From Boletus sp. NGJ (taxonomy: Eukaryota; Basidiomycota; Agaricomycetes; Boletales; Boletaceae): a stretch of 64,000 nucleotides of DNA. Both the position numbers and the translations under genes were made by a program. The notes beneath the pieces are model-generated. The model searched no databases, was not told the origin of the DNA, and saw only the letters and a list, made by a program, of their open reading frames with translations. Shown one piece after another: positions 7,905-31,837 of this stretch (the first letter of the stretch is position 1; every line of letters starts with the position of its first letter). The stretch lies in NCBI GenBank assembly GCA_019096195.1, contig JAGTXK010000055.1, positions 310,001 to 374,000 of the forward strand, written 5' to 3'.

Positions 7905-8123
7905 GAGGAGAAGCAGGACGCGGAGACGTGTCGAAGGACGTGTACTGATTAGGCAAGTGTAAAGCTAAGGTTAGGGTTACGCCAAACTGATGCAAACAAG
8001 ATGATTGACTTGAGCGCGTGCAGCTGCGAGGTATAAAATTTTTAATTGCTCGTGTGCGGGCTGTCGTCCTCGCCGTCTCTCTCGTCGACCAGCGCCCTTT
8101 CCTCGCCGTTCCGCACCGCGACC
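7905..8123. promoter_or_regulatory. Divergent promoter region
   Basis: This 219-bp interval separates the start codon of the minus-strand coiled-coil gene (7904) from that of the plus-strand deubiquitinase (8124). It must hold both core promoters. Confidence 0.6.
8032..8038 (+). promoter_or_regulatory. TATA-like box of the deubiquitinase gene
   Basis: TATAAAA lies 92 bp upstream of the ATG at 8124, a usual TATA-to-ATG distance for a fungal gene. It is followed by pyrimidine-rich sequence. Confidence 0.45.
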
Positions 8124-10945
8124 ATGGCAGCACCACAGCCCACATACGCACATCCCGGTCCCTCCTCCTACTTCCCTCCGCCTCCGCCCCCGCCCTTTCC
8201 CTACCACGCACCCAGCCATGCGCCGTACCAGTACCAATACCCCATCCCGCCCATCAATGGCCATCCCCATCCCCCGTCGTCCCCGCGTGTCAATCCACAG
8301 GGCCGTGGCTACCCTCCGTCGCGCGCTGGTCCGAGTTATCAGAACTACCAGCACCATCCGCAGTCCCATCACCATCACTATTCCTACCCACAGCCCTCTC
8401 CGCACTCCCCTGGTCCCTATCCCGCCCAACCCACACAACATCACCCGCACGGGAAATACCACTCATCCCCCGTCACTTACTCTCCCAGCTACCCTCTTCA
8501 CCCCTCCAGCCCCTATCACTCCGCTTGGCAGCCCCAGCAGCCATTGTCCCCCCTCCCTAAGCAGCTCTCCATGCTCCCCCCGCTCTCCCCCGCAGATCAT
8601 CTCCCTGACCTCCCCGACCAGTCAGATTACATGCCCACGCCAGAGTCAGATTCGGCCGAAATCCACGTCGATCACCCACGCTCGTCTCCGTCTCCCCCCA
8701 ACTCACCCCGCATCGCCTCTGTCTCTGCCCCCTCCATGCCCTCTTCCCCCGCGTCGTCGATCGTGTCGTCCTCAAAGATGATGGTGAGTGCGTCCGCCGA
8801 GTATGTCATCTGGTCCCACCGTCCCTCGAATCCTTCCACCGCGCCCGGCATCATCATATCCCCGCGCGCTCGTCCCCCAGATGACGTAATCCAGAAAGCA
8901 CTCGCGCTGCCCTCTCCGCCTCCTTCTCCGCCACCCACCGAGGTCCTCCCTGAGCGCGCCCCGACCCCCACACCACCCGACCATATAGACCCCCCCTCCT
9001 CGGTCGACACCGAAACGACCCCCGCAACATCCACTGCACCAGATACCTCCGTCCCCACGTCCCCCATCTCCACGAATACCTCCCTCTCTGCCGCTGACCC
9101 GCTCACAAAAACCACGTCGGATGAGCCTCCACAACTGGATCGCGTTCTCACACCTCAACCAGACATCGTCCCAGAATCAGTCCCTGTCGCTGCGGAACAA
9201 TCGGTCGAGCCACTCACCACGGAACCTCTTGCCACCCCAGTCCCAGCCAAACCAGCAGCTCCAAAACCATCATGGGCATCCCTCCTTCGCACCGCGTCCC
9301 CCTCAAAACCCAACTCCCTCCCAACCTCTTCCATCGTCGGTTTCTCCATCCCTGCATCCGCTCTCTCCGCACCGTCCACCGGGTCGCCCATTTCCCCGAG
9401 CAAGAAAAACGAGTTGCTGTCCCTCATTACATCCGGTCCATCCAAACAGCCCGTCATGAAAATCCGTTCTCGCGGTCTCGTCAACACTGGAAACCTGTGT
9501 TTTGCAAATGCAGTCCTTCAGGTGCTCATCTACTGCCCACCATTCTGGCGGTTGTTCCATGAGTTGGGCAAGTACCTCGATACCCCCAGTGATGACGACG
9601 CCTCCAACAGTAAGACGCCCCTCGTCGATGCGACGGTTAGGTTCCTCCAGGAATTTATTCCCAAGACAAAACCAGCTCCAGAGGGAAAGGGCAAAGCTGT
9701 TGACCGCACAAACTATGGCCATAGCGACGAGGAAGACAACCTGATAAACTCTTTTATTCCCACCTGCGTCTACGATGCACTCAAGGAAAAGAAGCGATTT
9801 GATCACATGCGAGTAAGTTAGTATAATCGACCCCCATGTCCCTTCACTTAACACCTTTCAGGGCGGCCACCAAGAGGATGCGGAGGAATTTTTGGGCTTT
9901 TACTTGGACACATTGGAAGAAGAGTTCCTCTCCATCTCCTCCTCGCTCACTTCCAAAACAGAATTGCATACTGAGACACAAAATGGCCACGCGGCCCAGG
10001 AGGATGGACCGTGGCTCGAAGTCGGTAAGCGCAATCGAACGGCTATTACACGCACGGTAAGTTGTTCACAACGAGGCAAATCAGTCGTTCACGGACACGA
10101 AAACAAACCTACAGGCCAAGTCAACCGACTCACCGATCACTCGCATGTTTGGCGGGAAATTCCGCTCGACACTCCACGTGCCTCACCAAAAAGACTCGGT
10201 TCTGTTCGAAGACTGGCGTTCGCTGCGATTAGACATCCAGGCTCGTTTCCCTACTCCTGGAGCCCTGTCTTTGCATGGACTCATCTGATTTTTGCAGCGC
10301 GAACAAATCCACACGATCAAAGATGCCCTCGCATACATTTCGTCGCCGCAATCGGTACAAGTCACTTCGGTCACTAGACCTGGCGCGACTTTGGACGCGA
10401 CACAAACGGTACACATTGACGCACTCCCTCCGATTCTCATCCTCCATCTCAAGCGGTTCTTGTACGATGCGAGTGCAGGCGGCGTAGGCAAAGTCGGCAA
10501 GCAAGTGTCGTTTACATCCGAGTTGGACATTCCCAGCGGTAGGCATCTTTTTGACGTCCAGTCTCCATGAATGTAACATTTTTCTTGCGTGTAGAAGTAA
10601 TGGCTACCGGCAAGAAACTCCATGGGACGCGGTACAAGCTCTTTGGTGGTAAGCACCGCTCTCCAGCTTTGGTATCACGACGCTGAGCCTTTATGATGCA
10701 TAGTGCTGTACCACCACGGGCTTTCAGCCTCGGGAGGGCACTACACCCTCGACGTGCTGCATCCCAACATCGATAATACGATGGGTACGGGACCGACGAT
10801 GAAGCCACGCGAAGGATGGATACGTATAGACGACGAGTTCGTGTCGGACGTGAGAGCCGAGGACGTGTTTGGGACTCCGGAGCGGGACGATCGATGTGCG
10901 TATCTGTTGTTCTACCGGCGTGTCGGTACGGGTGTGCGGAGTTGA
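8124..10945 (+). CDS. UBP3: Ubiquitin carboxyl-terminal hydrolase, USP10/Ubp3 type
   Basis: Cysteine protease that removes ubiquitin from substrates; Ubp3/USP10 relatives act in vesicle traffic, ribophagy and stress responses. Exons 8124-9812, 9862-10056, 10115-10240, 10298-10538, 10595-10648 and 10704-10945 close in phase for 848 residues. The first ~440 residues are Pro/Ser/Tyr/His-rich and disordered. The catalytic domain follows, with the Cys box (NTGNLCFANAVLQVL), the QEDAEEFLGFYLD segment, ILILHLKRFLYD and the His box (GLSASGGHYTLDV). The start is set at 8124 because the ATG sits in an accATGg context; an upstream in-frame ATG at 8046 lies close to the TATA-like box. The third intron (10241-10297) starts with GC instead of GT. 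The last exon ends with a typical LLFYRR tail. Confidence 0.93.
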
Positions 10946-11889
10946 CGAGCGGTGTGAACGTTGGTGGGCGGTTCAGAGAACGATGGTTGGTGGAAGGTGG
11001 GAGCATGGACGATGGCGGGGCTTGTGGTAATGAGGAACTCCGTGGCCTTTTTCATGCATGTAGATCTTTGTTCGCACACCCTCGCTCACTGGTCATCGTA
11101 TATCTTTCTTTACTTTTCTGCTATTCTTTTTTTTTTTCGAGGATTTTTGGTCTTATGTGGTCTGAGAGCGACAACATTCGGAAACCGTCATTGGGTTGAT
11201 TTGGATATGGAAACTAGCCTCTGATTCTTTGATGGGCATCTCCGTTGACGTCCCAGGCTATCAACCTAGGCTAGTCACCAGTCTATGTCGTACCGCTGCA
11301 CCAACACTCTTGATACCGTGTCATATTTGCGAATATTTGCGATACAGGCTAGACACCTCTTGACGATAAAAGTTTGGGTACCAATCCGTTTTCCAAAAAC
11401 GCTGATATCGACTCCATCTTTCCTCAGTTTGCTTCAAGGTGCCAACTATGACAGTACGTGCATCCACACGGAATTGCTGTATATCGACCGAAAACAATTC
11501 ACCCTAAACGTTGCGTTCCCTGAGCGTTGGAGGCCCAGACAGACGTTCTACGGTACTCACTGCTGTTGCATCGTTGGGCCAGATCGAGCGGGTCCTCGCG
11601 GTGTACCTATACTCGCCGGGTGTGTTCGACGGGCTATACTGCTCGCCTGACGTAGGTGACGTTGGGCTTATATGAGGAGAGACCCAATCGTTGGCCAAGC
11701 GACTGTTGCGAAACAAGTACGAGGCATTGGCTACAGCGAAGTTATAGAAGCACCTCTTAGCGCCCAGAGATGATCATAGGTGTGTGAACTGATGTATATC
11801 GATAAGGAGAGACGTGTATGCGTGGCGACAATATTAATGGCGTACCGCCCGTAGATGACTGTGCATCCTCCCTTCCAACGCTCTGATAC
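10946..11889. other. Intergenic, no gene seen
   Basis: About 0.94 kb with only short unconvincing frames. It contains the 3' flank of the deubiquitinase, with a T-rich tract near 11125, and the upstream region of the WD40/HET gene. Confidence 0.5.
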
Positions 11890-14800
11890 ATGGCCGAGTA
11901 TGTCATCGAGGATAAGCCAGCAGTCAATAAAGAGTGAGTACCTGGGCGAGCGGCATTCGAGAGTGTGATACTGACAAGAGTCGAGTGAAGACAGTCCCTA
12001 CCCCTTCAGCACCGAATACAAACAGCAAGCTAAACTGATCGAGATCAAGGGGAATATAAGCTCAGTCGCCTTTTTTGCTGATGGGAAGCACTTTGTGGGT
12101 AGCACGGGAGGAACGATTCGATGTTGGCGCGTGGTGGATGGCGCGTTGGTGGGGACGATGGATGCGGGGGGTGAGGTTATGGACGTCGCGGTCTCACGAG
12201 ATGGAAAGTGGGTCGTCAGTGGGACGACAGAAGGCTTGGTGATAGTATGGAATGCGGTGAGCTACGAAAAGGTAATCGCATTCGCAGGACACAAGAACTG
12301 GGTGTATGCAGTCGATATCTCTCCAGATGGAACGAGAATTGCGACTGGATCAAATGACAAGACTGCTTGCGTCTGGTCGCTCTCGATTGGCCAGCGACTG
12401 CTCGGTCCCCTGCAACACAACGGCGCCGTTTTCATGGTCAGATTCTCACCCGACGGACGCCTCATTGCCACTGCTAGTAGTTGGTCACGTCGCGTTCGGA
12501 ATCTACGATAGTCAGCAAGGCAGCGCTCTCGTTGACGTCAACAACCAGGCCAGCGAGTCGATCAATCGATCCCTCACTTGGACCAGCGATAGCAAGCAAC
12601 TTTTTGGTTTGTCTAATGACGGAAACATCGTCTGTCTCGACGTGTCCACAGGCACGACGCGCTCTAAATGGCCCATCCACGCCAGCTCTGGTTACACCTC
12701 CAAGTGCATCGCCCTAGCGAGCAATGACACATTCATCGCAGCTCCCGCATACCCATCAGTCTCGTTGTGGGACACTACGACGCACGAGCACATCGGGTCT
12801 ATTGTCATGGATACTGATCGCATCGAGTCGATGGCTCTCTCAACAAACAATGTTCTTGTGATGGGCGGATGTTATACTACCTCGTCTACAATCACGCTCC
12901 GCAGTCTCCGGGATGTCATTCCTTCATCCTACTGCTCTGACCCTGTAAGTGCATTTACATCATAATCCCGCTACATGAGACAGTTTCCTTATCATGAGCG
13001 GACCCGGCAGCGCATGGGGTTGGAAAAGGCCGGTCCCGGAGAGGTAATCAAAAGCCCAAGTGTGTTTTATTAGCACGCGAATTCGCGTGTCGTTGACATC
13101 CAGGTTCATTAGATAAAATTGCGCGTCTCGAAGAAACCGTCCAGCAACTCCGTGACCAGCTCTCCAACTCCAAACGTAGAGCGGATAGCCTAAACGAGTT
13201 GCTTCGTGCACAGGAGATGAACTCGAGTGCGTCCATCGCCACCCCGACGCGCGTTCATTGACATTCCCGTCTTTAGACACCAAAATCGCCCATCTCGAAA
13301 AAACCGTCCAGCAACTCCGCGACCAGCACGCCCATTCCCAACACACAGCCGATAACCTCCTCCAGATCCTTCATGCGCACGAGCAAAAACATAAATGCGA
13401 AGCCCTGTATGCCGAGGACCGCATAATCAAAGCAGCGATATGTCTCTCCGAGATCACCAATACCATAGGCGACGAGGTGAGAGCCAACACGCTGATAATG
13501 AACTGGCTTGCTGGTGAGTTTTGGGGTCGCGTATGCGGAGAATGCATTCAAATTTTACCATCAGAGTTCAAGAACGACTGTGAATCAACGCTGAAAATAA
13601 TTGGAGACGAGGCATCGAGTGCAGAGGAAGAAGATGAAGCGGTTGCAGCCTACTCTGCTGCATTGCTACTCAGTCCCTCCACCCCGAACACCTTCCTAAC
13701 CAAGTGGGCGCACATAATGTTGACTCGTAGCTCAGTGAGCGAAGTATCGAGTGCCGCCGCTAAGGTATGCTCTAGATGATAATCTGAAGCCGGACGTTGA
13801 CAGTCTTTTCGGATCAGTTCAAGCTTATAAACTTTATCATCTGCCAGACGATCAGTGATATTCTTGAAGAGGACGGTCGTGTTTCGGAGGCAATCAAGTG
13901 TTTCCTACAGTTCCAGAGCGAGCTAGGAGAGGTCACGGGTAACCATGATGAGAAACCACAGTCGGGACTCGGTGAGGTGTTCCGACAACGACGCAGCGAC
14001 GCGACAGATTCTTTCCACACAACAATGAACGTCGACGTGATGTCTATGGATGAAACTGAGTGGGTTGCTGGTGAGGATTCGCTACCTCTTTCATGGCCCT
14101 CAGTGTCCTCTGACATTGGACATCAGACTTCAAAATGCGTAGTCTCAAGACATTAGAGCAACGTGGAGATGTCTCTGTGGATTCCGCTTTATACAAAGAT
14201 GCTGTTGTCCAATACACTATAGCACTGGCCCTCGATTCTTTATCGACAGATCTTTTGACCAAACGAAGCAAAGCACGAGCTGCGATTGGATCATGGCAAG
14301 ATTCGCTGGAGGATGCTGATGCGGTACGTATCCTGATTTACACCAGAGCGATCGATCAACGTGATCTCAGGCGATCAAACTCAACCCATCGTGTCCACGT
14401 GGCCACGAAAGAAAGCATGCGGCACTGCTTGGCGCTCGTCGTTATGATGAAGCAATCAAGGCATACAAAGATATGCTTCTGAACCTTGAACAATCTCTGG
14501 ATCCTGTTACTCCAGGTAATATTTTCCAACTCACAATGGAAGCATCACCTGACAATGCAAAAATCAATCTGTGTGACAAGCACGAGCGTTTGGATGAATT
14601 CGAAGGTGATACAACATTCAAGGAGCTTGTTGCATCCATCACGACAGGGATCGACAAGTCTCGCATCACGCAGACCGTTCGGAAATATTTCCAATATGCC
14701 ACATTCTCCCATGCTTGGGAGGGAGCAGAACCGCTTTTCTACGATGTCCTTCATGAACCATTACACGAATTAGCAGCATCACCCACACAGTCCTGAAGTT

Positions 14801-16117
14801 GATGATGTTCTGTGCGACGGCGCGGGAGGCCAAGGTTGCGCTGGGCATGGTCCGATACATGTTGTATCAACAAAACAAACAGTTCGGTGCTCCAAGAATC
14901 CCTGACCTCGATGTTTCGATGGTACCACGCAGCCGCGCTCACCATTGTTCACCTAAAGGGTGTACGATCTGACCCGGAGCTGGGTGCGCTCGAGAGGTAT
15001 TTTTGGAACACCCGTGCATGGACGTTGCAAGAGTTCTTTGCATCCTGGGTCATCCGCTTCTACACCGAAGATTGGAAGCCATATCTTCCTCAGGAGAGTG
15101 CATATAACCACAAGGAGTCATCTCCAATCATGGGCGAGATGGGGGCCGCGAATGGTGTTGATGCACAAGTTCTGCTCTCTCTTCAACACGGATCAGAGAA
15201 TGTACGACAGAAACTCTGCCTTCCCTCGACGCGCGTCTCTACAAAACAAGAGGATATAGCCTACTCGCTCTTCAATATCTTTGATGTCTCCATCCTGGTC
15301 ACGTATGGCGAGGGCCAACAACGCGCTCTGGGTCGCCTCCTACAAGAGGTGTTGACTCGGTCAGGTGATGTTACGATTCTAGCCTGGACGGGGAAGGCGT
15401 CCGACTATAACCGCTGTCTTCCTGCGTATATCGCGAGCCAGCATCATCCTATATCCCGTCACTAATCGAAGATGACAAGATGGACGTGTTGGTCACGGAA
15501 CTACGGGCATCGTCATATCTCAACTCGGCTATACGATCAAGTCATCGTTCTCCCATCGCCCCGTCTCGTCAGTCGTCGCCTGAGCTTATCTTGCATTACG
15601 TTTCCGCTGAGAGGACTCTCCGTCTCGAGCGGCGATTCTCAGTGTGTTTATAGTGCCGTGACATCCGCACTCGGGAATGTCGAGATCAAGACGACGGAGG
15701 ACTTATCCAACCTGAAGAATTTAGTGCTCGTGTATCCATGGCTCCAGTGCCTTCTCGATCCTGCTCTTCCTTCCAAGGATCCGATTGTAGATGAGGATGA
15801 GGCGGAACTGCTAAGTTCGCTTGATGGGGATAGCGGGGATGGAGACTCTGATGTGCTGTCTCCTTTGTCATCGCACACTGCATCCCCTTCATACGACAAA
15901 GCTTAACAGAGCATTACGGCTTTTTACGCGTCTCAGGCAGCTGAGGCAACCCTTTGGCACACTATTGCTCGGTCCTCGGGTCCCGAGTCTGTCTATTCTT
16001 CGTGATCTCAAATTTGACCATTGCATGTTGCATTTCGCATTGCTTTCCGAAACGTATATTACAAACCAACTGGATAGGTTTAAGACTTGGACGTCGAACT
16101 TCTCCGAGCCGGAATGA
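11890..16117 (+). pseudogene. WD40 - coiled-coil - TPR - HET protein gene, apparently decayed
   Basis: HET-domain proteins mediate heterokaryon incompatibility and cell death in fungi; WD40 and TPR repeats are typical recognition or scaffold modules. The first exon 11890-11933 (MAEYVIEDKPAVNK) joins in phase to 11995. The WD40 block (about 11995-12950) has repeats such as SRDGKWVVSGTTEGLVIVWN and HKNWVYAVDISPDGTRIATG. Two similar coiled-coil segments follow (13113-13395), then a helical segment (about 13430-13900), a TPR-like part (ALYKDAVVQYTIALALDS, near 14190) and the HET domain (14530-15450: YFQYATFSHAWEG, WAWSDTCCIN, WNTRAWTLQEFF, EDIAYSLFNIF). A Leu-rich C-terminal region continues to about 16117. 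The domains lie in different frames; not every switch fits an intron, so several breaks are likely and the gene is probably not functional. Domain calls are firm, gene limits are not. Confidence 0.7.
13113..13395 (+). repeat. Tandem duplicated coiled-coil exon
   Basis: Two units (about 13113-13226 and 13277-13395) encode near-parallel helices. The first has KIARLEETVQQLRDQLSNSK and the second KIAHLEKTVQQLRDQHAHSQ. Each is preceded by a TTAG acceptor-like site, so they look like a duplicated exon within the WD40/TPR/HET gene. Confidence 0.7.
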
Positions 16118-18120
16118 CCGGCCTTTGATTCAAAAAGATACATGGAATCCATCTGGCAGCCCTCCGTTTGCGTTCGTTTCCTTTTGTTTTGGATAACACG
16201 ACTCGCCAGCATCCATGGCAAGCCCGCTACGTTTTGGACAAGCCGCCACTGGAGCACACCGAGATCTAAGAGAGATCCTCTCGACAATCGCTCAAAACCG
16301 CGGAAAAGTGAAGAAGGTTCAATAGTGGTGTCGTCCGATAGAAGAGTCTTCCCTGGCCCACAGCACAGTTGTCGCACGCTACAGCTTGCGCAATCGCACA
16401 CAAATGTCCGATATTACCTTGCTTGCAAGGTTAATTGTCGGGAGCTTTGAGTGTAGACACATGACCAAGTCACGCGAATCTTATGTAATGTCACATCATG
16501 CACGTTTCCTCCCGTTTGGAATGAGCGGCGCAAGTATGGTTTGTTGTTGGTCTTTCGCAGTGTGTATGGAAAAGGCAATAACACTGCAGTGAAACATCAG
16601 ATTTGTTCTTCCTCCTCATATGCCATCTTGCTATGAATTCGCCCATAGATTATGATAGATACTGATTAGTATAAATCTAAGATGACGAACAACTTGAAGA
16701 CAAAAAAGGATCTGACATCCAAAAGATCACGAGATGTATAGCGGGAATAGGCAAACGACACCCAATTAGACTAAAGGAGACACCAGATCCAAGTCTCAGT
16801 GTAGCCAAGAATGTAGCGTACAAATCTCTGCCAAAAAAAATCGAGATCGCACCCTATAAAAAAACCCACTACTTACGTAGCGGGAATTACTGCCTTTTGT
16901 ATTGAAATGGACGAGCGTGCTTGTCGGCTTACTTCCTTTCAAAACAGCTGTCACACTCTCGTCGTTTCACTTTGAATAGTTTCCTTTCATACCCGCGAAT
17001 CTCGGTCCTACTCTGAATCAAGCTCCCGAGTCTTGATAGGCCCCACAGATCGTTCTCTGATCGCCATTGATCTACGCGTAACTATTGTGACTACTGTGAC
17101 ACGGGCACTGAGTCCTTACCTGTGGCAATGAGAACGAAAGGCCACTGGGGCGAACAACCTGAGGCGGAGCGAGCTGCGAGGCCTTGAGGGTGGGCTGAGC
17201 AAGTTCAAGTTACTGAGCAGCTGGCAGAGAGCTGACATGTAATGACAGTGTCAAGTGAACAGGCCCAAAAAGTTTAAGCATGAAGGATCCGAGTCAGTGG
17301 CAAAAGGCACAAATAGGATGGTCATGCCGAGCACAGCCAGGTCGGAATATATGACACTGCGGTGAGTCATCATTTGGCTTCGATTCAGACGACATCCCGA
17401 GGGGGAGGCTGCCTCCCCGACTCGAACGGTAACTAACCCCGTTTTGGATTGATTATTGCATTTTTTTCTAGCCATCCTCCAATCACAGCTCGCAAATGGC
17501 CGGAGGCAGAGTAGTCAAGTGATAATGTTACACAGCGTCTTGCAGATGGAGCATATGTGGTCACCACCGAACGGAGTCTCAACGTCAAGCTCAACTCACC
17601 AACGTTCAACACGGGACCGTGCGTAGTTATTCCCTCGTGATACTCCATGACTGACCAACTGAGTGGTTGACCAACTTACAATGGTAGCCGATGGTATGGA
17701 GCTAGGAACTTGTTTGCAGTCTGTGAGGGGAGTGGGGGAAGGTGCAAATGAATGGCTATGCTTCTGATTGACAGCTGCGAGACAGTGCGATGAGCTCGCA
17801 CTCCAGCGAAGTGGACGAGAGCAAAAGGTCGGGCGCCTTACGCCGGCAAAAATATTCAGTTTCCAGTTTATCAACGGATCCGATTCTCAGATTTGCTGCT
17901 TTCGTGGAGAGACATGCGGTGAGTATCATAGCTTTCATTAGCCGGGCAGCAACTTATCACCAGATAGGAACTGAGGCACATTTTCCATACCTCAATCATT
18001 GGCACGGGACAAACACATCACTAGGTAAAGCTTAAATACGAGGGCATTTCTCACTGAGACCCCGTACGACATAATTCCCAGTTTCTGCTGCCCTCGGACA
18101 TACCCACTGCTACCAATACC
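16118..18120. other. Intergenic, no gene seen
   Basis: Two kilobases without a supportable gene. It is AT-rich around 16600-16900. Open frames at 17596-17938 (minus) and 17790-18035 (plus) show no domain and are probably chance. The P450 gene begins at the right edge. Confidence 0.45.
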
Positions 18121-20226
18121 ATGCTTTTTGGGGCAGTGATATCGCTCGTCCTCTGCATCTGTCTCTATGACCTGTATACCAGGTGCCGAGCTCACCATTT
18201 ACCACCAGGCATCTCTGGTCTTCGATGCCTCTTTGAGATCCCGAAAGGGAAGATATGGTCGAAAGGTGCTCCAGCTTAACCGCAAATATGGTGTGCAGAG
18301 TTATCATCATAAATTTTGCTATCACTGATCATTCGTCGGATAGGTGATATTACCTCTATATCGTTGTGTGGGTACAATATCATCCTCATCGGTTCTGCCA
18401 AAATTGCCGACGATCTCCTTGAAAAACGTGGCATGAATTATGTTGACCGCCCTCGGTCAGTTATGGGAGAGCTGTCAGGATGGGGCACAATGATGTTACT
18501 GTGCAACTACACCGATCGCTTTCGTACTCAACGAAGATGGATCGCTCAGGATATTGGCAGTCATGCTAATGTCGCCAAGGTTCATAGGATGATCGAGGTT
18601 GAAACACGACGATCTTTTCGATTGGTACTCGAGGATCCGGACAGGATCCGGGTCCACCTCCGCAGGTATGTTTGAGATAGATCTTTCTCCTATTTGACTA
18701 ATGATGTCGTACAGGAATGTTACTTCCATCGCATTACACCTTTCGCATGGATATATCACTAATATGGAGGGCGACGATCCTCTGGTCGAGTTAACTGAAT
18801 TAGCAAACTCGCAATTGTCAAAGACATTAGTTGCGGGTGCACACGCTGTCGATTTCATCCCTTTCTGTAAGTTGACGATCTATTCCACTATCTCTCAGTT
18901 CCTACACCTGCTGCAGTGAAGTACATCCCATCATGGGTTCCCGGTGCTGGTTTCAAGAAGAGAGCCGCAGAATATGCTGCCGTTCTGCGAGACATATTAG
19001 AAATCCCTCACGATTATGTCCAGTCTCAGCTTGTGAGTTCGCTAGGCATTTTGTTTTGACGCCCGCCGATCTGGATTTGGAGGCTGCTGGTACAGCGCTG
19101 CCATCACTTTCCTCTCGTCTCTTAAGCTTACCAGACCTCACGGAAGAACAGCGGGACAACATTAAATGGACTGCATCTTCGGTATTCCGAGGTACGCACA
19201 ACACTGTTAATCTCAGTCTCGTGGTAACATTATCAAAATGATAGCGGGTGCAGAAACGGTACGAGACTTATCTCTTACTACAAGGTACTCATTGCTAAAG
19301 TTTTGTCCAGTCCACATCTGCCTCTTATGCGTTCTACCTCGCTATGACGCTCTATCCACGTGTCATGAAAAAAGCCCAGCAGGAGCTCGACTCGGTCGTT
19401 GGTACTGGCAGATTGCCAACATTCACCGACCGGCCATCTCTACCATACATGGAAGCTCTGTTTACAGAGCTCTTCCGCTGGCATACTCCAGGTCCGATAT
19501 GTAGGTTTGGTTCTCGAACCCAAACACAGTGGTTACTAAGGACGTTCTGCAGCATTGAGGCGTACGAGAGCCAATGATGAATATAACGGATATCTGATTC
19601 CCGAAGGCTCTTATGTTGTGGTCAATATCTGGTAGGTCAGCAGCGCTCGAGTGAAATGCCACAGATACAACGTTCCTTTGAATTTAGGGCCATGCTTCGC
19701 GATGAGAGAACGTACACAGATCCCTTAGAGTTCAAACCCGAACGGTTCCTGGGAGATAATCCGGAACCTCATCCCTTCAATGTATGCTTCGGTTTTGGAC
19801 GACGGTAAGCAGAAAATCAGTCGTGACGAAGACAATATTGACCACGGAACCCCTGCCCAGTCGATGCCCGGGTGGGTTATAGTCGTTCGACTGAACTCCG
19901 AAACGATGTACTGACCTCACGCTCCGCATGTGTACACACAGGTTTTTACTTTGCGCAGTCGACCATCTGGCTTCTGTGTGCCCAATCCCTCGCCGCATTC
20001 GATATCTCAAAACGCGTAGAGAATGGCGTCGAGGTCACGCCAGAGTTTAACTATGAGGGAGAAGCACTCATGTCAGTGTTCAAGTATTCTTCTACATCGT
20101 TCAGTTTGTCGCTGACCTGTGTCTTGCGGATTTTTCAGGTATGTGGCACCCTTCAAATGTCTGATCAAGCCCAGATCAGAGACAGCGGCAGATCTCGTCA
20201 AGGGAGGAATTCCCGATGTAGGGTAG
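18121..20226 (+). CDS. Cytochrome P450 monooxygenase
   Basis: Haem-thiolate monooxygenase of the fungal microsomal type; substrate unknown. The N-terminus has a membrane anchor (MLFGAVISLVLCICLYDLY) and the LPPG hinge. Exons: 18121-18290, 18344-18665, 18715-18866, 18917-19032, 19083-19191, 19245-19258, 19311-19500, 19553-19631, 19688-19804, 19861-19871, 19942-20071, 20139-20226. Key motifs are the oxygen-binding AGAET, the ExxR-region LPYMEALFTELFRWHTPGP, the PERF element (FKPERFLGD) and the haem loop FGFGRRRCPG. Exon 6 (14 nt) carries AGAET and exon 10 (11 nt) carries the haem-ligand cysteine. From exon 2 onward all phases close. Exon 1 does not: the start frame and the frame entering exon 2 differ by one base near 18240-18260, with no room for an intron. 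This could be a sequence error, a wrong start or a recent lesion. Confidence 0.88.
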
Positions 20227-20421: not shown

Positions 20422-22520
20422 ATGCTTGTCACGGCGGCTCGCCATTTCGTCCCACGTCGTGCTCACGCCTGGCATATACGACCGTTCAATAATCCTTCTG
20501 TCGGCTTATTCTCAGTTGCTTTGATGATGCGGACCAGGCGAGCGACTCAGCTGGCTGCCATTGACAAAGATGAGGCCAAGCACAGGCCAGTGGACGTCAA
20601 ACCACCGGCCGAAGGAGAGCATACGAGGCGGCCACTCAAACGCGCTAGGAAAGAACAGCGGCCAGGCGAACGAGCATCATCAACGGTTGCCACTGGCGCA
20701 GAACTTAAAGAACCTGAACGTAAGTCACATTGAGCCCAGGTTGCCTTAGTGTTTCGGACACACAGTACACACAGTGAACGACGCGGATGCTAGCCATACG
20801 AAACAATCACGCAAAGCGCGGAAAAAGAAAGAAGATGCTAACCCCAAACCATCTGATTTCGCTCCGCGCGTATCTTCGGCATGGAAAGTTGGTGCGCACG
20901 TCTCTGCAGCTGGGGGTGTGGAAAACGTGATTGTGAATGCGGCGCGTGTCAGGTGGGCTTCGCGTCCCCTTTGTTTCATTCTCAATGATAACGGCTTGAT
21001 GCACCTTCGTAGGGCCAACGCGTTTGCTCTATTCGTGAAATCGCAACGGAAATGGGTATCTCCCCCTCTTACAGACGAAAACGTCGCGTCTTTCAAAGCA
21101 CGCATGGACGAGTTCGGGTACGATCCGAAATATGTTCTCCCCCATGGAAGCTACCTCGTCAACCTTGGAAACCCTGATGAGTGAGTACCTTGTATGCGCC
21201 GCCCCGTCCTGACCATGATGTGTAATCCCAGAACGAAGCGCGAAAAATCATACGAATGCTTTCTGGATGATCTCAAGCGATGTGAACGTCTCGGCTTGAT
21301 GTTTTACAATTTCCAGTGAGTTTCGATCCTCGTTCTTCCTTCCAACGACCGCGTATATGCTACTTTCGCATCTGAAAAGCCCAGGTTCCACTGTTGGGAA
21401 TGCGACGAAAGAAGAATCGATATCTCATATAGCTCAATGTTTAAACAGGGCACATCGAGAGACATCATCCGTGACAACTGTCATCGAGAACATGGTGAGT
21501 GCTGTTTTCCGCCCACATTTGTTCTCCAGTCTTCACAATGTGAATACTGAGCCGGGGGTAATGATATGCTTCTATTAGTCTGGTGCCAAGAACATCATAG
21601 GTTCCCGGTTTACAGAGCTGCGAGATATTATCGATCAGGTCGAGGACAAGTCGAGAGTTGGAGTGTGTCTTGATACGTGTAAGTACTTGGCTCAGCATGG
21701 AACTGTACAATCGCTGATGCACTTGTGGGTAGGTCATATGTACGCAGCCGTAAGCGACCTTGTCGCCCATTTGAGACATAGATGTTGATGTATTACATAG
21801 GGTTATGATATCTCTACAAAAGCAGGTTGGAAGTAAGTTCCATCTTAATCTGTAGGGGATTTCTTGACACTTCAACTACCGGCAGCACAACGAGTGAGTC
21901 GAGGATCCATGTCCATTACATGCGTCGCAGACTTACGTGGACTCTGTTGATAGTGGCGACGTTCGATGAACAAGTTGGACTCTCATACCTCCGAGGGATG
22001 CACCTGAACGACTCCAAGACACCACTTGGATCAAAGAAAGATAGGCATGAGAACATTGGGCTGTACGTCGTCACCCACCAATGGTCGTTCTGACTGATCC
22101 ATCTGCTCATCTTTTTTATTTATTCATCTGCGCCCTCCCGCATTATTTGCCGAACATCTTACCAGAGGTACACTCAAGCTCTCAGCATTCCTAACGATCC
22201 TCTCGGACCCTCGAGTTCAAGATATTCCTCTTATACTCGAAACCCCAACATTTGAAGCTGTAGAGGTATGGGAGTGTGAGATCAACGTGTTGAATATGTT
22301 GTCGAAGGTTGGGGCTGGTTCAGGGGCTAGTGTGGGAGAAGAAGGGGATAGAGGAAGAGAAGAGATGTTGGAGGAGATGGTGGGCGAGATTCGGAATGTC
22401 ATCCAGGAAAGGAACGGGAAGAAAAATACATCAGGCATATCCAAACCGAAAGGAAAGTCAAGAAAACGTGAGATAACAGACGATGAAGAGGAGGATGAGT
22501 GCACGGAGCATTCTGGGTAG
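20422..22520 (+). CDS. APN1: AP endonuclease APN1 (endonuclease IV family)
   Basis: Zinc enzyme that cuts DNA 5' to abasic sites in base-excision repair. Exons 20422-20719, 20775-20952, 21013-21180, 21232-21315, 21380-21494, 21579-21678, 21733-21749, 21801-21832, 21886-21893, 21954-22062 and 22166-22520 close in phase for 487 residues. Family metal ligands are visible: [58 protein letters not shown] and LILETP. Exons 7 and 9 are only 17 and 8 nt. The first ~45 residues are Arg/His/Ala-rich without acidic residues and look like a mitochondrial presequence. Lys/Arg-rich stretches follow ([16 protein letters not shown]) and recur at the C-terminus (KGKSRKRE), resembling nuclear signals. Dual mitochondrial and nuclear targeting is therefore likely, as reported for yeast Apn1. 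A start at 20524 would omit the leader. Confidence 0.95.
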
Positions 22521-22674
22521 ATGGAACGAGTGTGGTACTGTTCCCCCACCTCATCTACACTAGTACTGATCTTGTCTGACCAGCCACGGTTACAACAATC
22601 GTGGATCATTACCTTGCAAACTAGGATAAGTATTGGAGGCGTAAATTAACCTTTTTTTCGTGGTATAATCAACA

Positions 22675-24229
22675 CTATAACCGGTTCACAGAACACCGCC
22701 TGCATACTAGGGTCTGGCAATTCATGCAGCGCTGCGACCAACAAATGAGCACACAGCATCCAAAGGACACCAGATAAAAAACTCGCCATCAAGAAAACGG
22801 GCAAGAAATCACTACACTGTTCGCACTGCCCAGATCCGTGTCTATACCTCCAGGAGTGGACCTGACATTCGTGATTTTCACGCAGCTGCTCCATCTGTTG
22901 ATAAACCCGCTCCGCGTGTATTGCTGGTTGCGCCCGAGCCCCCCAATCCCCAAATTCATTGCGCACCCTTCTTTCGGCGTCGTTCACTAAGCGTTCTTCA
23001 TCCCATTGGCGACAGGCACACGTTTTCCATCGTGCAGAGCACAGATAGCAAAACTGTGTCGAACAACGACAGGTAATATGATAACATCCCTGGCTGAGTT
23101 CGATGATGGCATGACACCCGGGGCACGTCTGCCACCTGTTCGCAATCGCCGTTTCTCGTAATTCAAGCGTTGATTGGTGCTCGGAGCAGTCTTCTCCTGG
23201 ATGCGCGTTATTCTTGCATAGGGAGCAGGAGACAGCGTCACAGTTATTGCAGGTGAGATCTCTCTTCATATCTCCCGACGCGTCAAGGAACGTGGAGCAT
23301 CTTGGGTTGGAACAATACACCCGTGATCCGGCGGGTATTGAGTATTCGCGACGCTTAGTGAGAAATTGAGACCGGAGGGAGATCGAGATAAACCTGAAGA
23401 CGCCGAGCTCCAACGGAAGTGGTTGATGACAGCATCGCAGCGGGTGGAGACTCTCATCACGCAGAGACGTTTCGACGAGGCTCACAATGCAGCCTCGACA
23501 ATAGCGGTGGGCGCAAGGTGCTTCAAACGAGCGACGAGCGAGGACGTCGTCGCCGCAAATGACACATTCGAGACCTGTATCGAGGCTTCTGATCATCGAT
23601 GTCAGTTACGTTCAAGTTCAGGGAGACGAGTCTCACTGGGAGTGTTGGTGGGGGGCGATGACAGGGGCCACTGGGGTGGTGATGTGAAGATTTTCTACGC
23701 CCACACGAATGGCTTTCGTGTCCACCTCCGTGGCGTTACTAGTATTTCCACGTGGCACGGGAGCAGGTTCTCTGTTGAAAGAGTCAATGGTTGCATTACA
23801 CAGACATGCTCGGATTGACCTAGCATATTGAACCGTGGTCAGTTCCATCCTCCGTTGCAACGGCGTCTGCTGTGGCAAATCATGCCCATTTCCAAGGGCA
23901 ACAGCTGCCCGATGGTCATCGCGTTCAGCCTGTTCCTGAAGTGCGATTCTCCCGAGTTGATGTGCGTCGGTTTCGATGGCGCGATCGATGCTTGAAGCAA
24001 ATTGGTGGTCTTGCAAGACACCAATCAACGTGTTCAAAGATGCAGCTTGGAAGTCGAATGCAATGTCTTCGTCGCTGCGCGGGGCATCCTCGCGAGCCTT
24101 GCCTTTCCGGGTGGCCTGGACGGCAGCTATGTCGTTGAGTACCAACTCGGCGATGAGGAGCTCCGATGCGGTATCAGGGACTCGTTCGTGGAGGTGGGAC
24201 TCAACGGCAGAGCTTGCGGTCAGAGTCAT
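22675..24229 (-). CDS. RBR (RING-IBR-RING) E3 ubiquitin ligase
   Basis: Ubiquitin ligase of the Ariadne-like RBR class, expanded in mushroom-forming fungi. Exons 24229-23637, 23588-22787 and 22731-22675 close in phase for 483 residues. The N-terminal ~195 residues are helical and acidic (NTLIGVLQDHQFA, QEQAERDDHRAAVALG). RING1 is CVICGDDV...CAHRYCRGC, the IBR is YCSNPRCSTF...CNNCDAVSCSLC, and RING2 is CPGCHAIIELSQGCYHITC, whose cysteine after GCYHIT is the expected catalytic position. The last exon is reached through an intron (22732-22786) with a GC donor. It yields RCMNCQTLVCRRCSVNRL, the Cys-rich end usual for the family; reading through gives an unrelated hydrophobic tail. Start: an in-frame TTG upstream was rejected for the ATG at 24229. 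It converges with APN1 across 154 bp. Confidence 0.9.
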
Positions 24230-24579: not shown

Positions 24580-25450
24580 ATGAGCTCCATGTCTACGTTT
24601 GCCCGGGGGACCCGCTCAGTTGCGTCACGGCGTGTTCTTTTCTCTGAGAGACGCACATATGCAACAACCACTCAACTTCCTCGACCACCGCCTCCCACAG
24701 AAGATCCTCGCATCGAGACCTTCTCAGCCCCTTCAAAACCCAAACCCTACAACCGTCCTTCTCCGCGCGGCGACTTGCCCCAAATACAAGTACCGCCGTC
24801 CATATGTTCCGTATTGTGAAAAAAAAAACTAAAGTGCGTTCATGTAGAAACGATGGCCAATCATTCTCGCATTTGCCGCAGTCGGGGTGTCTGGATGGGC
24901 TGCGTTCCTCCTCGTAGCGATGAACCAAGAACGTCTCTCGAGTTCCGTCGTACGCCAGGTTTTGAATACGGCACGAGAAGATCAGGCGTTGCAGGCTGCT
25001 TTGGGTGATGCCATACGGTTCGAGCCAACGTGGTACCTCAATGGCGACCCCTGGATCAACGGTTCCGTGCGTCTCATTCACTTTCTTCTTCTTCTTCTCC
25101 CCCCATGTCTGGTATTTCTAATGTCATGCGTTTGGTAGATAAATCTCCCGCAAGGAAACGTCGACGTGAGCTTTCGACTAAAAGGTCACCAAGGTGAGTG
25201 AAGCGTTTCTCTGTCCGTCGAACTGGATGGCATTTTGGGGGTCATTGTAGGCAGCGGAACGCTGTATTTTACTAGTATCCGCAAAGCGAAAGGAGAAGCG
25301 TTCACACCTTGTACGTCCTGCGTTGTTATTTGGGGCAATCTGTATGAACCTTGTTGCTTTGCAGTGCGATTCAGGGTCATCTGCGATAATGGCGCGGTCA
25401 TCAATATCGTTCCGCAGTCCACCAGCGCGTCTGGATCACGGGCACAATGA
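24580..25450 (+). CDS. COA1: Cytochrome c oxidase assembly factor COA1
   Basis: Inner mitochondrial membrane protein that chaperones early Cox1 intermediates. Exons 24580-24789, 24848-25066, 25139-25193, 25251-25310 and 25365-25450 close in phase for 209 residues. The N-terminus (ARGTRSVASRRVLFSERRTY) is a mitochondrial presequence. One membrane helix (IILAFAAVGVSGWAAFLLV) is followed by the Coa1/DUF1783 signature: SSSVVRQVL, a WYLNGDPWINGS segment, LPQGNVDVSFRLKGH and SGTLYFTSIRKAKGE. Two close in-frame ATGs exist (24580 and 24589); either keeps the presequence. Length fits the family. The intron after residue 70 is flanked by a run of nine or ten As. Confidence 0.9.
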
Positions 25451-30750: not shown

Positions 30751-31837
30751 CTATCGATGGCACCTACAATAGTTCCACTTTACGCCACAATTGTAACAAA
30801 ATTCTTGCCGACACCGACACACCATATATGCGCAACCAAAGGAGCGTTCCACTACTATGTTGCATTTCGGACAGGTTTTCCAGCCTTTTTTCAAAGCAAG
30901 GGAGCGAACTTCGCGACTCACATTGTCATCGCAGCTTTCTCCGGGGTGTGCGCAAGTTTTGCATCCAGAACAGACCTCTGTGCTGCATTCTGGACACGAC
31001 ACCACACATGGTGTCGATGCGGGTGATCTTCCGATGAAGTTTGAACACGTCTTGTTGGGACAGTAAATGCGGAGGTTGGGAGGAGTCGCTGCCTCTGCAC
31101 ACTTGAAAGAGAAGGTTGTACGGAGTGGACCAGGCAAGAAACTAAGGAAGGTGTCCATTGGAAGCTGCTGTTGACAACATCTCAAGGGGAAAAGTCCTTC
31201 ATCGTTACTGGCGACTTCGGCCATGGTAATCACGCACTGGCGGCAGATGAAATGGCCGCAAAGCCCGTTGAGACAGGCGGTACATTCGAAAGTGTCACGG
31301 CAGACGACACATTCGACGCTAGCACGATGGTGAGTCGTCCGGTGAATGATACGTGTGCGATTCACTACCTGACTTGTTCCCGCTTTGTGTGTCGAACGGT
31401 GTTATTTATTTTGGAGGGTCCTCCTTCGGGCTGAGGCCCTTCGGCTGCTATATCAGCCACCAAGAATTTTGCTCTAGACGTCGATTCGGACGATCAGCTC
31501 TGCGAAGTATATACAGCGTGACCGAAAGGCTCACAACAACTCTGCAAAGGAGGCTTTGCACATCTCCAACTGGGCCGGTGTCTGTGGCGGAAGGGGTCCC
31601 CCACGCTGCAGCGCAAGTGCTGCTTGGTAGTCGTCTCGTTCGCCTGTTTCTAACAGTGCCAGACGGTCGAGGAAATACGATCGGGATTCTGATTCGCGGT
31701 TTTTTTTTTTTTTTTTTGCTTTATGATGAGCCCCCCCTCTAGTAGTCCTGTGGCACTGAGGAATACTTACCCTCCTTTTTCGAACTAGGGAACCACCGGC
31801 GTATGGGGGTCACTAGCTTGGCGAGTACGAAACCCAT
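30751..31837 (-). CDS. RBR E3 ubiquitin ligase, paralogue of the 22.7-kb gene
   Basis: Same family as the gene at 22675-24229. Exon 1 (31837-31771: MGFVLAKLVTPIRRWFPSSK) joins in phase to exon 2 (31688-31535). Exon 2 contains LLETGERDDYQAALALQ and PLPPQTPAQLEM, parallel to QEQAERDDHRAAVALG and LPQQTPLQRRMEL of the first copy. The catalytic part (about 31370-30751) has RING1 CVVCRDTFECTACLNGLCGH, an IBR (YCPNKTCSNF, CPECSTEVCSGC) and RING2 CPKCNIVVERSFGCAYMVC with the expected active cysteine. It ends just after RING2 (NYCRCHR), so it lacks the Cys-rich tail of the first copy. The exon joining 31535 to 31370 was not resolved. A run of 18 Ts (31700-31717) lies by the second exon's acceptor. Confidence 0.8.

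Follow-up and report, generated by a model that had tools for sequence, protein, structure and literature searches.

Downstream of a WD40 propeller, coiled-coil-like exons and TPR repeats, a HET domain is found in the DNA of the basidiomycete Boletus sp. NGJ (contig JAGTXK010000055.1, positions 310,001 to 374,000; this stretch of 64,000 nucleotides is called the window). This raises the question whether the locus encodes an NLR-like receptor for self/non-self recognition in which TPR takes the place of NACHT, as the original prediction had it, or a gene of another kind. HET is a cell-death domain related to TIR (PMC9815663; PMC10197012). A role in allorecognition has been described for few HET genes, i.e. 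5 of the 125 in Podospora anserina (PMC10197012), and somatic incompatibility in basidiomycetes is described as poorly understood (PMC8229728). A survey of 2005, in which the basidiomycetes covered were Cryptococcus neoformans and Ustilago maydis, found HET, among the species included, confined to filamentous ascomycetes (PMC1325252). According to the section on this subject in PMC9815663, basidiomycete NLRs lack HET, which occurs there in non-NLR architectures. Since HET is missing from these NLRs, it is a fair question where the HET domains of basidiomycetes are located.

Domain order and exon structure of the locus

The stop-to-stop frames of the locus, 10 pieces in total, were searched with Pfam profiles. 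Between about 11,900 and 15,900 the series WD40, coiled coil, TPR and HET was found in this order, all on the forward strand (Table 1). The propeller was recognised by PF00400 in four stretches of piece 11,975-12,508 (E 5.7e-30), and a weaker propeller signal continued in another frame. TPR_2 exceeded its cut-off in the spliced middle segment of 477 aa (E 7.4e-8), whereas the single unspliced pieces remained under the cut-offs. HET was assigned by PF06985 in piece 14,806-15,462 (E 1.2e-6, profile positions 46-93 of 146), which scored 29.4 bits against a gathering cut-off of 22.5. Five of the 10 pieces (4, 5, 8, 9 and 10) gave no Pfam match at E ≤ 1. The WD40 block, the TPR region, the HET domain and their order with HET towards the C-terminus, all claimed beforehand, were thus borne out by the profiles; a single intact protein was not, as the frame is broken in WD40 and in HET (see below).

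Seven GT-AG introns were picked by eye and tested for an open frame. Intron 1 (11,934-11,978, GTGAGT...ACAAG) links, as judged from the sequence, the ATG at 11,900 to the WD40 frame. When the ATG at 11,890 was tried as the start, a stop appeared after 17 codons once intron 1 had been removed. Further downstream, five GT-AG introns of 50, 51, 53, 56 and 47 nt (13,227-13,276; 13,514-13,564; 13,765-13,817; 14,071-14,126; 14,324-14,370) can be removed from 13,104-14,793, which leaves an uninterrupted frame of 477 codons; it begins in the coiled coils, crosses the TPR region and reaches the first HET block. Because this segment forms a single open frame, TPR and HET are part of one gene. Two or three adjacent genes (WD40 in a short one, coiled coil and TPR in another, HET on its own) could be imagined from the stop of the WD40 frame at 12,511 and from the weak donor at the join to the coiled coil. 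This is very unlikely, as the propeller signal resumes directly in the next frame and the TPR region and the first HET block occupy a common exon (14,371-14,793).

For the junction between WD40 and the coiled coils three phase-compatible joins were found, all of which have weak donors. An intron at 12,945-13,103 was rejected because the frame was lost and 24 stops appeared. The probable intron at 12,949-13,103 is about three times as long as the other introns, and at the 3' end it is similar to the coiled-coil intron.

The limits of the locus had been placed at 11,890 and 16,117. The start has to be moved, since the ATG at 11,890 meets a stop and the one at 11,900 fits. The 3' limit is not established, because 15,815-16,114 gave 0 Pfam families.

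Table 1. Features of the locus, in window coordinates.
Feature	Position	Strand	Basis or remark
Exon 1 (likely), beginning with the ATG at 11,900	11900..11933	+	only ATG of the two tried that joins the WD40 frame
WD40 propeller, first part, premature stop at its end	11979..12511	+	PF00400, E 5.7e-30
Frame break within the propeller	12477..12511	+	propeller match lost at about 12,481 in one frame, regained from 12,477 in the following frame
Second part of the WD40 propeller, blades degenerate	12477..12944	+	matches to WDR55 (E 1.7e-9) and further propeller profiles, each under its own cut-off
Probable intron, WD40 to coiled coils	12949..13103	+	most plausible of three phase-compatible joins; weak donor GTGCAT
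Coiled-coil-like exon, copy 1	13104..13226	+	repeat D1; open once spliced
Second coiled-coil-like copy, first part of exon 13,277-13,513	13277..13400	+	repeat D1
TPR module A, holds intron 13,514-13,564	13447..13764	+	aligns with module B
TPR module B, holds intron 14,071-14,126	13818..14323	+	splicing, Pfam, alignment to module A
HOP/STI1-like TPR block, spans intron 14,324-14,370	14127..14480	+	HOP/STI1 structures, TPR_2
HET N-terminal block	14695..14793	+	one match of 18 residues (14,695-14,748), 61% identity to the fungal HET in L012, E 3.2e-4
Three stops within the HET core; HET homology on either side lies in this frame	14794..14805	+	frame and homology comparison
HET body and following region, stop at its end	14806..15465	+	PF06985; fungal HET, 34% identity, query residues 14-196, E 1e-22
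C-terminal region, probably with more frame changes	15430..15906	+	weak codon-bias profile; no homologue

Duplication in the coiled-coil and TPR part

The duplication of the coiled coil, which the original prediction had also contained, was recovered as repeat D1 of 102 nt, the copies of which are 76% identical and 167 nt apart. In a heptad pattern assigned by eye, 8/9 and 7/9 of the a/d positions of the two copies were hydrophobic (Ala counted), and Pfam gave weak matches to SlyX and Cast that stayed under their cut-offs. On the basis of these heptads and matches the duplicated exon is called coiled-coil-like. The copies differ at 7, 7 and 10 sites at codon positions 1, 2 and 3, respectively, and over 33 codons dN was 0.24 and dS 0.50 (NG86). 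This mildly suggests that the gene was in use after the duplication. A relic of a third copy of the coiled-coil exon may be hidden in the intron at 12,949-13,103.

A second duplication was found in the TPR part. Modules A and B aligned with a score of 62, which was reached in 0 of 2000 shuffles, and in both an intron interrupts the alignment at the identical position, between W-L/V-A and E/D-F-K, in phase 1. The duplications of the coiled-coil exon and of the TPR module imply that the binding part of the gene grew by tandem exon duplication.

Among solved structures the TPR block of the locus resembled the TPR1 domain of HOP/STI1 best. Residues 6-102 of the 108 in the block matched HOP/STI1, with E 1.9e-15 for 7kw7 and E 1.1e-8 for 1elw, the TPR1 structure. 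The two-carboxylate clamp of HOP TPR1 is formed by K8, N12, N43, K73 and R77. At these five positions the locus has E, D, K, R and R, so that a single residue is identical and another shows a K-to-R replacement, and it lacks in this comparison the clamp residues of a HOP/STI1-type co-chaperone. As judged from the clamp alignment, binding of Hsp70/90 tails by the TPR block is doubtful.

Search for related sequences

No close relatives of the locus came from the viral and prokaryote collections. Peptide patterns were found in 14 stretches (the HET pattern in three viral and 10 genome-contig stretches, the WD40 pattern in one viral stretch), 0 of which were confirmed as relatives, and the same kind of search in the plasmid collection gave 0 matches. 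A scan with a HET motif gave 0 viral sequences and three genome contigs of the prokaryote collection, of which two were short chance frames and one was real (L002). This last one is located in G002, a MAG titled Deltaproteobacteria bacterium CPC1 that holds 41 HET-domain matches in 7.3 Mb and also contains L004-L023. One of its HET loci, L012, is apparently split by an intron. A filamentous fungus probably makes up part or most of the assembly.

The HET sequence of G002 was used as the comparison set for the HET domain of the window; 14 control genomes gave no HET. The HET piece of the window matched G002 in eight places (best E 1e-22, 34% identity) and the WD40 piece in 11 places (best E 2.6e-17). 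The TPR block matched it in 0 places, a result that concerns one assembly and carries no weight on relatives. A fungal origin of the locus itself is indicated by its HET homology and its short introns.

The reading frame, as sequenced, is broken in the propeller and in the HET domain

Two homology-supported breaks within 2.4 kb, one in WD40 and one in HET, were deduced from Pfam profiles, from homology to distant HET sequences and from the introns that the sequence would allow. The first WD40 frame stops at 12,511 and the propeller signal switches frame at about 12,480. As the propeller signals of the two frames abut, there is no space for an intron at this break. Candidate introns that could bridge the breaks were collected with GT or GC donors, AG acceptors, a length of at least 35 nt and compatible phase. 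Five such introns were found at the WD40 break, and in 0/5 a canonical donor occurred together with a branch-like site; the donors of two of the five passed 4/5 checks, with the branch-like site absent.

In the HET domain three stops interrupt the frame (Table 1). Homology of the HET body to the fungal-looking sequence extended over 14,842-15,402, in the same frame as the N-terminal block. Among the 15 HET matches listed, 13 were in one frame of the window (one to the left of the stops and 12 to the right) and two were antisense. The 13 matches represent six distinct places, L002, L015 and L018 being one place and L017 and L019 another. The distance from the first Tyr of the N-terminal block to the Trp of the WSDTCC block is 51 codons in the window versus about 47 residues in L012, the intron junction of which was read by eye. 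Because the spacing is similar to that in L012, no intron is expected across the stops. Two phase-compatible introns (39 and 45 nt, donor GTCCTG) were nevertheless found, neither with a canonical donor and a branch-like site; either would skip the stops and remove 13 or 15 codons of the HET core. When 14,680-14,793 or 14,757-14,837 was searched alone, Pfam did not find HET.

A frame change that would restore the helix between the two HET blocks was also considered. Alignment of the three frames to L012 gave scores of 18, 19 and 14, with 629, 437 and 969 of 2000 shuffles as good, respectively; no frame stood out, and the stops alone are firm. The fold predicted for the HET ORF modelled alone had a pLDDT of 31.6, too low to be of use, and the best match of this ORF among PDB sequences had an E of only 0.29. 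A complete open HET that could act as a death effector was not found, as three stops lie in frame and the weak-donor intron is a slim possibility. After the HET body further frame changes (beyond 15,430) are weakly indicated by the codon bias. For the first of these changes one candidate intron, with a GC donor, passed the filter, so that the change is not firm.

As the frame is broken in both WD40 and HET, no single intact protein is encoded. This copy is most likely non-functional, because a full-length protein cannot be made. We give a probability of roughly three in four to the reading that the locus is a pseudogene, a decayed copy of a single fungal gene with several exons. Its ancestor, when intact, would have had the layout WD40-coiled coil-two TPR modules-HET. 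The best explanation of the observations is that a gene of a large, variable class has decayed in the ordinary way.

Alternatively, the gene could be intact and the breaks errors of base calling or assembly, in which case the organism would have a working NOD-less WD40-TPR-HET receptor. The open frame from the coiled coils to TPR across five introns would fit this, as would the values of the coiled-coil copies (dN 0.24 versus dS 0.50), which mildly suggest use after the duplication. However, two separate homology-supported breaks would be needed in 2.4 kb and the three stops are clustered in HET, which makes such errors unlikely. Besides, two other genes of the window, GDA1/CD39 and RRP7, run without interruption over 739 and 339 codons, which is a partial control of the sequence quality as both are among 10 ORFs picked for their length, 4/10 of which had no Pfam match. 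It is also conceivable that the breaks are bridged deliberately, by unusual splicing or programmed frameshifting, as a control on a toxic HET. In Tuber melanosporum the sensors of NLRs are reported to be diversified by microexons of three bases (PMC10197012), and the two weak introns would be able to skip the HET stops. This explanation is nonetheless extremely improbable: the HET break has no canonical donor, skipping would cost 13-15 residues of the HET core and the WD40 break would require a separate device.

Comparison of the probably decayed gene with NLRs and other HET proteins

The absence of NACHT from the original prediction could have been an oversight, and this was discarded after the Pfam and Walker A scans. 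Walker A (G-x4-GK[S/T]) did not occur in the six frames of 9,000-19,000, and neither NACHT nor NB-ARC was among the Pfam matches listed (for one piece these were the best 25 of 52 families). In the whole window two Walker A motifs were present, at 24,771 and 60,440, both on the reverse strand. The locus thus has no detected central NACHT or NB-ARC of an NLR (STAND), and instead of an N-terminal effector and a C-terminal repeat sensor it has its repeats N-terminal and HET C-terminal.

TPR is a binding scaffold and not a nucleotide-driven switch. In fungal NLRs, TPR or WD40 already serve as the sensor part (PMC10197012), and basidiomycete NLRs are reported without HET (PMC9815663). With the copy being disrupted as well, the proposal of an NLR-like receptor in which TPR replaces NACHT is not supported. 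What remains of the original interpretation is one gene with the given order and without NACHT, as the coiled coil, TPR and the start of HET share a spliced frame. The locus is best read as a NOD-less WD40-TPR-HET gene and not as an NLR.

Like HET-E, HET-D and HET-R of Podospora anserina (HNWD), the locus has HET and WD40 within one gene. In these proteins, however, HET is N-terminal, NACHT central and WD40 C-terminal (PMC4986451), whereas in the locus WD40 comes first and HET last, and NACHT was not found; the HET-NACHT-WD40 order is therefore absent. With fungal NLRs that have TPR sensors, such as PLP-1 and PNT1, it shares TPR repeats in a cell-death receptor, but these carry NB-ARC (PMC12881547), which was not detected in the locus. 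Also comparable are the non-NLR HET proteins of basidiomycetes (PMC9815663), which resemble it in having HET without a detected NACHT or NB-ARC. The section of PMC9815663 concerned gives no domain order for them, and the copy in the locus is disrupted. The literature matches listed (text passages, titles and abstract openings) contained no published statement of the order WD40-TPR-HET.

WD40-TPR-HET proteins are probably common in Boletales. In the intact form, going by the known roles of the domains, the propeller and the TPRs would recognise a modified or foreign protein, and the coiled coil and the TPRs would gather copies together. This clustering might then switch on the TIR-related HET and lead to regulated cell death, with no NOD (nucleotide-switch) module involved. 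More tentatively, mushroom-forming fungi might possess a whole class of death receptors that lack a NOD, combine WD40, coiled coil and duplicated TPR with a C-terminal HET, replace the absent HET-NLRs and leave pseudogenes through fast turnover of copies, a generalisation that we consider possible rather than probable. The locus provides one concrete non-NLR layout of HET in which exon duplication is visible in the binding part. Since it is probably a dead copy it says little on function, and its value is that of a pointer to intact relatives.

Neighbouring genes in the window

Upstream of the locus, at 8046-10374 on the forward strand, a gene for a ubiquitin carboxyl-terminal hydrolase was observed; UCH was matched in one frame and again in the frame that follows, there under the cut-off. 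Downstream, 20750-21181 on the same strand contains a frame resembling AP endonuclease family 2 (PF01261, under the cut-off). Two further frames were noticed on the reverse strand: one with an IBR domain at 22649-23605 and, at 30754-31401, one with a RING-like cysteine pattern recognised by eye.
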